In this document: piece by piece, positions 7,329 through 32,491 of the stretch
Layout of the letters: each line of letters opens with the position of its first letter
Numbering within the stretch: position 1 is the stretch's first letter
Program-made: the position numbers and the translations under genes
Notes under the pieces: model-generated
Databases searched by the model: none
Seen by the model: the letters and a program-made list of their open reading frames with translations, nothing else
Told to the model about the DNA's origin: nothing
From: a virus
DNA: 39,986 nucleotides
Virus record (IMG/VR): IMGVR_UViG_3300045993_001142
Location: 1 to 39,986 of that record
Reading direction: 5' to 3' (one strand)

Positions 7329-7589
7329 ATGAATGCACTTGCAAAGGCGACGCGCCCTGCGCGAGAGTCGCAGTGGAGGTGGCGCTTGGTTAGCCCGATT
7401 GTTCCGCCCGGGGAGGGCAACGGAGTCCCGCTGTCGATGCGCTACCCGAAGCTGCTGCTTCAGAGGGTAGACGCCGTGGCCAAGGAGACGGGCAACCCGC
7501 GGACGGAGACGATTCTCCACCTCATCCGCTGGGCGCTGGACGAGTACGACAAGGAGCGGTCTGAAGAGTCGGGGATGAGGAAAAAGTAG
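7329..7589 (+). CDS. Ribbon-helix-helix (CopG/Arc-type) transcriptional regulator (86 aa)
   Basis: Residues 33-75 give the RHH pattern: a strand (VPLSMRY), helix A (PKLLLQRVDAVAKET), the turn GNPRTET, and helix B (ILHLIRWALDEYDKE). Such proteins dimerise to form a two-stranded sheet that reads the major groove. The N-terminal 30 residues are basic and probably flexible. The start is the ATG at 7329, directly downstream of a -10 element and without a ribosome-binding site. The gene lies beside divergent promoters and a palindrome, so it is probably an autoregulated switch between the two early transcripts. Whether it sets lysogeny cannot be told. Confidence 0.8.
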   Translation: MNALAKATRPARESQWRWRLVSPIVPPGEGNGVPLSMRYPKLLLQRVDAVAKETGNPRTETILHLIRWALDEYDKERSEESGMRKK

Positions 7590-7598
7590 CTAAAGCGT

Positions 7599-7640
7599 AG
7601 GGCGCGGAAATCTGGGTTATGTCAACTCAGCCCGCGCCCT
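7599..7640 (+). promoter_or_regulatory. Strong two-part hairpin in the gap after the regulator
   Basis: AGGGCGCGG (7599-7607) pairs with CCGCGCCCT (7632-7640). Inside it, CTGGGTT (7612-7618) pairs with AACTCAG (7624-7630) with one G-T wobble, leaving a five-base loop. An ATG in the loop opens an eight-codon ORF (7619-7645, MSTQPAPS). There is no T-run, so a classic intrinsic terminator is unlikely; an attenuator, a processing site or a Rho-related pause is possible. Confidence 0.6.
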
Positions 7641-8778: not shown

Positions 8779-9017
8779 GCTGCCCCACCTGCAACGACTG
8801 GGGGAGCGTGAAGCTGCTAGCCACCGGGATGCCCGTCCCCGTTCCCTACGCGGTGCCCTGCCCCACCTGCCGGCCCGTCGAGCACCAGGTCGCCATCGGC
8901 GGGGAGCAAGGGCCCGACGCCACCGAGCTCGAGATCGACCGCCTCCGCCGCCGGGTGGCGGACCTCGAGGCTGACCTCGCCGCTCTTCGCCCCGCCGCGC
9001 CCAGGAGCACGCCGTGA
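8775..9017 (+). CDS. Zinc-binding coiled-coil protein (80 aa)
   Basis: Two CPTC motifs (residues 3-6 and about 34-37) form a DnaJ-like zinc site around a short loop (NDWGSVKLLATGMPVPVPYAV). The C-terminal third is a predicted coiled coil (ELEIDRLRRRVADLEADLAAL). It lies directly before the replication initiator with a GTGA overlap, so an accessory role in replication is plausible but unproven. Confidence 0.6.
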   Translation: MSCPTCNDWGSVKLLATGMPVPVPYAVPCPTCRPVEHQVAIGGEQGPDATELEIDRLRRRVADLEADLAALRPAAPRSTP

Positions 9018-9886
9018 GCAAGTCCATCGACCCCCAGCTGCCCTACATCCAGGTGGCCCGCGGCGTCGCCGCCAAGGCCGCCCAGCTCGCCGCCCGCTGC
9101 CAGGCCGACTACTACCGGGTCCGCGGCGTCCTCGACTGCTTCTGGGAGGAGCTGGCCGACCGCCGCGTCCTCCTCAAGGCCATCCAGGGCCCAGGGTGCG
9201 TCGTCGTCACCCTGGAGCAGGCCGAGGCGGGCATCTGCAAGCCCATCGGCGCCTCCATCGCCGACGTCATCCAGGCCGGGTTTCTGGAGGCCAGGCCCGA
9301 CGGGTACCGCGTCCGGGGGATGTCCCGGTACCTGGACGCTGAGCGACTGCGGCTGGGACGCAAGGGGGGTTCAACCCCCCTCCGACCCCCCTTCGACCCC
9401 CCCGCGACCCCCCCTCCAGTACCACTTCAAGGGGGGTCGGAGGCCACAGACGTAAGACGTGAGACTAGAGACGGAAGACGTAAGACAGAAGGAGAAGAGG
9501 AAGCACCTCCGCCTCCGGTGCTCAAGGTGGTGGAGCCGGAGGACCCGCTCGCCACCCTGACGCCCGCCCAGCGCCACCAGCAGCTCGAGCCCCCTGACGC
9601 CTCAAGGCGCGAGGACTGGACGCGTCAGGACTTCTGGCGCTGGGCCCAGTGCGCCCGCCGGGACAGGGCCCGCCTGGTCGTCGAGAAGTGGCCCAACGAC
9701 GTCACCTTCCGGGCCTGGTGGGGCGACGCTCGCGCGCTGGCCTCGGTGGACGCCCTCCAGGCGGCCTTCGTCACCTTCGGAGATGACTCCAAGTGGCAGC
9801 GGGCGACGCCCCCCCTGCCCTTCGCCGCCTTCATGTCGCAGTTCACCAACTACCTGCCTCAGGGAGCCGCCCATGCTGCGCGTTGA
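9014..9886 (+). CDS. Replication initiator-like protein carrying an internal origin (290 aa)
   Basis: Residues ~1-110 look like a winged-helix domain found in phage replication proteins (ADYYRVRGVLDCFWEELADRR...IGASIADVIQAGFLEARPDGYRVRGMSRYLDAE). A disordered, charged linker (about 117-175) is encoded by the iteron and heptamer block at 9364-9491. The C-terminal part is Trp-rich (WTRQDFWRWAQCARRD) and may contact host replication factors. This arrangement, with the origin inside the initiator gene, recalls lambda O. No helicase or polymerase gene was found, so host enzymes must be recruited. GTG start, GTGA overlap. Confidence 0.65.
   Translation: MSKSIDPQLPYIQVARGVAAKAAQLAARCQADYYRVRGVLDCFWEELADRRVLLKAIQGPGCVVVTLEQAEAGICKPIGASIADVIQAGFLEARPDGYRVRGMSRYLDAERLRLGRKGGSTPLRPPFDPPATPPPVPLQGGSEATDVRRETRDGRRKTEGEEEAPPPPVLKVVEPEDPLATLTPAQRHQQLEPPDASRREDWTRQDFWRWAQCARRDRARLVVEKWPNDVTFRAWWGDARALASVDALQAAFVTFGDDSKWQRATPPLPFAAFMSQFTNYLPQGAAHAAR
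9364..9491. other. Candidate replication origin: 11-bp iterons plus purine-rich heptamers
   Basis: Four tandem 11-mers ending in ACCCCCC lie at 9370-9380, 9381-9391, 9392-9402 and 9403-9413, one per helical turn. Exact or near inverted copies lie at 9431-9441 (GGGGGGTCGGA) and 9364-9374. From 9450 to 9491 come six tandem heptamers (ACGTAAG, ACGTGAG, ACTAGAG, ACGGAAG, ACGTAAG, ACAGAAG), followed by more purines. This is among the least GC-rich stretches of the window, as expected for an unwinding element. The order of iterons then easily melted tract inside an initiator gene matches lambdoid origins. Confidence 0.7.
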
Positions 9887-30958: not shown

Positions 30959-32491
30959 ATGTCCCTTCCCCGCCTCGCCCTCGCCCTCCTCGCCCTGGCG
31001 CTGCTGGCCGCGCCGTCGCCGATGCCCTCGCCGCCGCCGGACGCGACGCCGACGACGCGGGGCCTGGTGTCCACCGGGGCGCAGAAATTCGGGGGCCTGA
31101 AGACGTTCGACGGGGGCATCCAGGCCGACATCCGGCCGGGCTCGTACTTCAATGGCGTCCCGCTGTGCAGCGCCACGCCAGCCGAGGGCGCGGTGCTGAC
31201 GTACTCGGGTGGCCAGTGGTGCTGGACGGCGTACGTGGCGCCCACCTACACGTGGGCGGCGTTTGAATTCGCGCCGGGGTTGCAGGCCGATGGCGGTGGC
31301 GGGACGGCGGGCCTCGGACTTGGGCCCGACGGCGGCGTGGGAGTCGCGTGCGCGTGCCTGCCGACGGTGTACGGCCTGACGACGGACGGTGGAGTCACGA
31401 CGAAGACGGCGCTGACGTTCACCCGCGCCAGCACCGCCACCTGCACCAAGGGCAACACCACGGCCTCCATCGCCAACGGCGACCTCGTCACCTGCGCCGC
31501 CGCCCAGCCGCGCGTCATGCCGGGCGGCGACGGGACGGGCGGGTTGGGGCTGTTGGTGGAGTCGAGCCGGGTGAATTCGCTGCTGCAAAGCCAGGCGCTG
31601 GACAACGCGGCGTGGCCCACGGCGCAGACTGCCGCCCCCGGCCTCCCCACCGTCACCGCCGACTTCGCCGTGGCGCCCGACGGCACCACCACCGCCGAGA
31701 GGTTCCAGTTTCCCGCCACCTCGGCGGTGCAGGCGTCGTACACCAGCCAACTGTCCTGCCCAGGCGGCGCCGTACCGGCCACCGGCAGCGTGTACCTCAA
31801 GGGCAACGGCACCTCGGGTACGGTGGATGTCTGCGCGGGGAGTATTGCGGTGTGCTCGTCGTGCACCTACGTCGCCGCCTCGTGGAGTCGATGCACCATC
31901 ACCACGGGCGCCAACGCCGGAATCAATACCTACTACATCGGAAACTTCTCGGCCTTCAACGGCGGCATCGCGCGCGCTGCCAACGATGTACTGCTGTGGG
32001 GCGCGCAGTGCGAGGCTGGCGCCTACGCCACCAGCTACATCCCCACGACGACGGTGGCGGTGACGCGGGCGGCGGAAACGGCGAGCTTCGCTGGCATCGC
32101 GCTTGGAACGTCGGGCTTCTCGATGGCCGTGTCCACCACGTCCACCGTTGCATCCTTCCCTTTCGCGTCGTCCGGGCTGCTGGATTACGGCGCTGGTGAG
32201 TGGCAGATGACGCGGAACCCTAGCGACCCACGGCTGACTCGCGCCGGGATTGGTGGCACGGCGTCCGGGGTGTCTGCGGCGTCCCCGGCTAGGTATGCGT
32301 GCGTGCGGGATTCGGTTGGCCTCACGTCCTACTGCTGCGCGAATGGCGCGTGCAACGCCCCGGCTGCTCAGGCCGGAGCGCAGACGGGGTCCGGTGTGCT
32401 TGCGCTCGGCGTCCCTCTCGGCTCCCAGCCGTATCCCGAGGGCGTACTGAAGCAAGTCTGCGTAGACCCCAGCCAGTCTCGAAGTCGGTGA
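30959..32491 (+). CDS. Signal-peptide-bearing fibre-like protein (510 aa)
   Basis: N-terminus MSLPRLALALLALALLAAPS is a strong signal peptide, unusual for a tail protein. The body is Gly/Thr/Ala-rich and beta-type; LLVESSRVNSLLQSQALDNAAW and GAQCEAGAYATSYIPTTTVAVTRAAE resemble carbohydrate-binding segments of tail fibres. About 14 cysteines occur. From ~32080 onward codons are less GC-biased. It lies between J-like and I-like baseplate genes, which normally adjoin. Secretion, or a lipid-free surface role, is inferred; a plain fibre whose N-terminus merely looks like a signal is the alternative. Confidence 0.65.
   Translation: MSLPRLALALLALALLAAPSPMPSPPPDATPTTRGLVSTGAQKFGGLKTFDGGIQADIRPGSYFNGVPLCSATPAEGAVLTYSGGQWCWTAYVAPTYTWAAFEFAPGLQADGGGGTAGLGLGPDGGVGVACACLPTVYGLTTDGGVTTKTALTFTRASTATCTKGNTTASIANGDLVTCAAAQPRVMPGGDGTGGLGLLVESSRVNSLLQSQALDNAAWPTAQTAAPGLPTVTADFAVAPDGTTTAERFQFPATSAVQASYTSQLSCPGGAVPATGSVYLKGNGTSGTVDVCAGSIAVCSSCTYVAASWSRCTITTGANAGINTYYIGNFSAFNGGIARAANDVLLWGAQCEAGAYATSYIPTTTVAVTRAAETASFAGIALGTSGFSMAVSTTSTVASFPFASSGLLDYGAGEWQMTRNPSDPRLTRAGIGGTASGVSAASPARYACVRDSVGLTSYCCANGACNAPAAQAGAQTGSGVLALGVPLGSQPYPEGVLKQVCVDPSQSRSR

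Follow-up and report, generated by a model that had tools for sequence, protein, structure and literature searches.

A candidate theta-type replication origin inside the coding sequence of a putative phage replication initiator

Does a cluster of short repeats in the middle of one gene of an uncultured phage mark the place where replication begins, and does the protein encoded around it act there? The window, by which we mean the whole stretch of DNA that was analyzed, consisted of 39,986 bases of the record IMGVR_UViG_3300045993_001142 and had a GC content of about 72%. The analysis indicated that positions 9364-9503 are likely to be a theta-type origin that is located within the gene for its own initiator and is similar to ori-lambda in its working. 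Judged by sequence, the initiator is not a recognizable lambda O homologue. The features of the gene and of the candidate origin were as follows.

9014-9886, plus strand: putative replication initiator gene, 290 aa; an open reading frame with a GTG start that overlaps the stop of the upstream gene
9014-9361, plus strand: conserved N-terminal domain, helices and a two-strand hairpin (AlphaFold mean pLDDT 84; 42-49% identity to relatives)
9362-9583, plus strand: codons of the disordered linker (residues ~117-190), host of the candidate origin (pLDDT <50 over residues 118-190)
9366-9378, unstranded: dyad GGGGTTCAACCCC, formed by an inverted copy and the first iteron core; unique in the window
9370-9413, plus strand: four 11-bp direct iterons that have an ACCCCCC core and fall in all three reading frames (synonymous null 17/2000)
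9370-9380: iteron 1, TTCAACCCCCC
9381-9391: iteron 2, TCCGACCCCCC
9392-9402: iteron 3, TTCGACCCCCC
9403-9413: iteron 4, CGCGACCCCCC
9431-9440, minus strand: downstream inverted iteron copy GGGGGGTCGG, within a 15-nt inverted repeat
9448-9489, plus strand: six strand-asymmetric purine heptamers, AGACNNN; proposed unwinding element (synonymous null 3/2000)
9462-9503, unstranded: least stable 42 bp of the gene in a nearest-neighbour scan (among the top two of 39,944 window positions)
9599-9883, plus strand: C-terminal helical region in which W..DFW... and PFAAF are kept in relatives (alignment; model confidence low)

The four iterons, the inverted copies at both edges, and the six purine heptamers were present as the original prediction had claimed. 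The sequence ACCCCCC or GGGGGGT occurred six times within 75 bp, compared to five times in the remainder of the 40 kb, and the inverted GGGGGGT copies were located at 9364 and 9431. The dyad GGGGTNNNACCCC had a single copy in the window, at 9366-9378, where 0.06 copies were expected by chance. In addition, a perfect 15-nt inverted repeat paired 9379-9393 with 9429-9443. The distance from the last direct iteron to the heptamers was 41 bp, with an inverted copy in between. The heptamers read AGACGTA, AGACGTG, AGACTAG, AGACGGA, AGACGTA, and AGACAGA (9448-9489), and degenerate copies continued to about 9503.

The locus had also been described as one of the least GC-rich in the window, and this was true of the heptamer half. 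Specifically, the 64 bp starting at 9440 had a GC content of 51.6%, and only 11 of 39,923 segments of this length were lower. The claim did not hold for the full 128 bp, which were exceeded in GC poverty by about 1,686 of 39,859 segments, because the iterons are GC-rich. No other 42-bp stretch of the window, on either strand, was as rich in purines as that starting at 9461. In the duplex-stability scan, in which lambda O served as the positive control, the weakest 42 bp of the gene was the tract directly 3' of the iterons in lambda O and in all four genes of the family described below. The heptamer tract was matched in thermodynamic weakness by only one other site in the window, 31919-31960. 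Cumulative GC skew, which had been suggested as a check, was monotonic across the window; it had no turning point and provided no support for an origin.

To separate the DNA repeats from the protein that they encode, we held the protein fixed and redrew the synonymous codons 2000 times. Of the 2000 redraws, 1 matched the low stability of the window gene, 3 matched its 7-bp periodicity, and 17 matched its 11-bp periodicity. The heptamers exceeded the synonymous null in all seven genes tested; the 11-bp periodicity was not above it in two relatives, L050 and L165 (267/2000 and 352/2000, respectively). Successive iterons and heptamers fall in different reading frames, covering all three, and a protein repeat therefore cannot explain them. 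The DNA repeats exceed the demands of the encoded protein.

These results bear on the idea that the repeats are neutral or act at the protein level, having been made by slippage in a linker that is first Pro-rich and then Arg/Glu-rich, with selection on linker chemistry only. The linker is indeed disordered, as the original prediction had said of the residues encoded by the repeats, it is charged in all relatives in the alignment, and many contigs contain pure tandem heptamers that are not in genes. Against this idea, the 11- and 7-bp units cycle through the frames, and the synonymous nulls reject it for the heptamers in 7/7 genes. The codons of the heptamer tract were also nearly unused otherwise: AGA accounted for 3 of 219 Arg codons and GTA for 0 of 162 Val codons in the reference genes. 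Finally, the heptamers were degenerate copies in a fixed register rather than perfect ones. We consider this neutral or protein-level explanation quite improbable, and the nulls favor a function of the DNA itself, as had been proposed.

If the DNA is under selection, the repeats should be found with related proteins. Protein searches identified L002, whose best segment was 44% identical, and L050, with 33% identity across most of the length. When 2.9 million virus contigs were scanned for the DNA pattern of iterons plus heptamers, exactly two matches were obtained, and these were L002 and L050. A pattern of heptamers only yielded 105 stretches and recovered all three relatives; the fourth family member, L114 (the same as L165), had surfaced in this heptamer scan before any protein search. 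A wider protein scan carried out afterwards yielded the contigs of these three relatives and nothing else. The family thus has four members, and the proteins of the three relatives were 32-37% identical to the window protein. The family had no match in Pfam, PHROGs, or NCBIfam and none in reference phages, tblastn against reference phages and plasmids found no relative of P0001, P0002, or P0005, and a protein scan of genome contigs found no relative. The sole genome-contig match to the DNA signature, in a Gemmatimonadota contig, was intergenic and weak and was taken as chance. The sole other exact GACCCCCC array, in L049, was outside any initiator gene and was set aside.

All four family genes contained ACCCC iterons followed by purine heptamers, which were of the form NNAGAGG in the relatives. 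In L002, L050, and L165, the distance from the start of the last ACCCC to the first heptamer core was exactly 7 bp. The arrangement of the iterons varied: L002 had direct 11-bp repeats only; the sites of L050 and L165 were dyads spaced about 22-23 bp or 45 bp apart, with ACCCC dyads recurring every 22-23 bp in L165; and the GGGGTNNNACCCC dyad was common to the window, L050, and L165. One reading of these sequences is that ACCCC represents one half-site, which may be used in a direct or a dyad arrangement.

Repeats of this type could also be operators or regulatory sites at the RNA level, with autoregulation by protein binding or by mRNA hairpins, instead of an origin. Strong RNA folds were predicted in 4/4 genes (z of -2.9 in the window and -3.3 to -5.8 in the relatives), and direct 11-bp CGACCCC arrays are found between genes in marine phages, at sites that could serve regulation. 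The folds, however, differed in layout among the relatives, and a shared RNA structure was rejected for this reason. Furthermore, the coding strand had no promoter-like site and no terminator, and regulation would leave the adjoining heptamers and the stability minimum at a fixed distance unexplained. We therefore regard a regulatory site as unlikely.

Structure prediction indicated what kind of protein surrounds the repeats. In a Foldseek search of BFVD, the best match of the N-terminal domain was 'Primosomal protein 1' (probability 1.00, E 0.0098, TM only 0.53), and a Replisome organizer was found lower in the list (probability 0.33). Fold and sequence searches of the PDB yielded nothing significant. 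Based on the model, the N-terminal domain is probably a winged-helix domain that would bind DNA. Together, the synonymous nulls, the conservation in three relatives, the placement of the stability minimum as in lambda O, and the putative phage-initiator-like fold supported the original prediction that an origin is embedded in the initiator gene.

The neighboring genes were examined as well. Near the initiator gene were genes for an HNH endonuclease, a VRR-NUC/Holliday-resolvase-like protein, an HU-like protein, and a Dam methylase, and genes for Erf and a PD-(D/E)XK nuclease were nearby on the opposite strand. These surroundings are an early replication/recombination region. No helicase or loader gene was recognized near the initiator gene of the window. 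In the relatives, a DnaB gene was located directly downstream of the initiator-like gene of L002, and RusA-like genes were located downstream in L050 and L165. Elsewhere in the window, positions 7503-7630 had the lowest GC content, near the point at which genes on the two strands diverge, and are possibly the main control region. An ORF at 17-1390 contained many near-identical 'STAPVA.SALA' repeats, and its product is probably a repetitive structural protein.

Phage genomes carry repeated sites for packaging (pac or cos), recombination, or partition, and a terminase gene was about 3.5 kb away; such a site might lie in the initiator gene by chance. We judge this to be highly unlikely, as the repeat site accompanied an initiator-like gene in 4/4 contigs and matched the layout of the lambda origin, and the terminase and recombination genes were located elsewhere.

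For the embedded origin, we infer a series of steps from binding to helicase loading. The N-terminal domain would bind the ACCCC half-sites; the four direct repeats of 11 bp all face the same side of the helix, and inverted copies lie at the edges. On these half-sites, the initiator would build a compact nucleoprotein complex. Strain and supercoiling would then open the adjoining tract of purine heptamers, which is the weakest duplex of the gene, and the exposed strand would perhaps be held by the initiator through the heptamers. The host DnaB helicase would be delivered to this strand via the C-terminal region, which is proposed to contact the helicase or a loader.

The heptamer scan also led to a second group of genes. 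In L061, L065, L080, L101, and L103, heptamers were found in genes of about 245-257 aa. In these L061-type genes, unrelated 11-bp iterons of the TGTAACGC type ended at a constant distance before AGAGGNN heptamers. The C-terminal part of the proteins matched phrog_15768 and phrog_28809, and the N-terminal part showed a weak match to replisome organizers. A profile comparison detected no homology between the window family and the L061 family. Among 61 unique heptamer matches, all six with strong lag-11 periodicity were mid-gene, compared to 5 of the 55 others (Fisher p = 8e-6), and in two of these five (L103 and L114) the best lag was also 11. The five L061-type genes are not five independent events because they resemble each other. 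In addition, the heptamers are common to both families partly by selection because they were the search key; the independent result of the heptamer-based search was the 11-bp array together with the mid-gene position.

By analogy, we suggest tentatively that the AGAGGNN/AGACGNN heptamers might be a modular, strand-specific unwinding element that unrelated initiators use with different iterons (ACCCC here and TGTAACGC in the L061 family). Such an element could perhaps be read by a shared factor or a single-stranded DNA-binding mode rather than by sequence-specific initiators, and its role in phages would correspond to that of DnaA-trios or plasmid 13-mers.

Similar repeats were observed in other settings. 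Pure tandem heptamers of the AGAGGNN type were located outside genes and without iterons in L056, L068, L069, L099, L124, and other virus contigs. CGACCCC arrays occurred in 46 virus contigs and were considered as a sign of wide conservation; most of those inspected were intergenic and in AT-rich marine phages, and they were discounted. About 35-40 AT-rich, mostly marine phage contigs (L003-L048) carried intergenic 11-bp CGACCCC arrays, examples being L020:1873-1901 and L041:7781-7809, and in some cases arrays faced each other about 90 bp apart. In L020, the array had a terminase-small-subunit-like gene on one side and an exonuclease gene on the other. In L030, a DUF6291 (PF19808) gene at 1947-2606 on the minus strand contained mid-gene 11-bp CGACCCC iterons and, after them, GTAAAT hexamers. 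A gene downstream was recognized by eye as encoding a P-loop ATPase; DUF6291 may be a phage replication initiator. Mid-gene tandem repeats of 5-7 bp were found in L159:1501-2208 (Pam1), L160:1429-2118 (a Vibrio phage), and L162:1285-1875. These genes of reference phages were annotated as hypothetical or DUF4373, and some were beside helicase genes; in Pam1, 12-bp repeats immediately preceded the heptamers. In L024:3-443 (minus strand), which encodes a phrog_9474 replication initiation protein, GGGGTCGGGTA-type repeats were in the N-terminal coding part and not in a linker.

No annotation library contains an origin or an initiator family for these phages, and the locus provides candidates for both. 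It also indicates that the DNA sequence by itself can reveal an in-gene origin in a genome with 72% GC, in which AT-richness is no help. If the heptamers were a shared unwinding module, phage origins could be searched for by means of them, and the opening of DNA by non-AAA+ phage initiators could be tested directly.

Three known systems were compared with the window. The replisome organizers (Phage_rep_org_N, Lin1244_N, and DUF6291) may be weakly similar in the N-terminal fold, and they resembled the window gene in having in-gene repeats with short purine-rich tandem repeats and, in several cases, helicase or ATPase neighbors. They differed in iteron sequences and repeat lengths, the window and L061 families showed no profile homology, and PF09681 (Phage_rep_org_N) did not match P0001, P0002, P0003, or P0005.

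Plasmid initiators bind duplex iterons as well as one strand of the repeats in the unwinding element (PMC5043065, PMC10797057). As in the iteron plasmid origins (RK2, F, and R6K) and V. cholerae ori2, the window had helically phased direct iterons beside a repeated, destabilized unwinding element, which is the iteron-type theta layout. Unlike these origins, that of the window was inside the initiator gene, its protein had no match to a Rep family, and its unwinding repeats were heptamers instead of AT-rich 13-mers.

In ori-lambda, an AT-rich tract that unwinding requires flanks the mid-gene iterons (PMC7466680), and the purines of this tract are almost all on one strand (PMC5043065). The window had the same layout of iterons and an easily unwound tract mid-gene. 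The iterons began at codon 119, nearly the same codon as in O, in which they span codons 116-144; the purine-asymmetric, least stable tract was directly downstream on the same strand; and a disordered linker joined the N- and C-terminal parts. The label 'lambda-O-like' was thus apt for the layout and did not extend to the sequence or to the iteron spacing. The protein had no PF04492 (Phage_rep_O) match at E<=0.5, and none was found in the genome search, whereas the lambda O control gave 5.7e-36. The lambda iterons are 18-bp dyads about two turns apart and its unwinding tract is AT-rich DNA; those of the window were 11-bp GC-rich direct half-sites one turn apart, next to 7-bp repeats in a 72% GC genome. 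The layout of the lambda origin is known, and here it appears in an otherwise unknown protein family.
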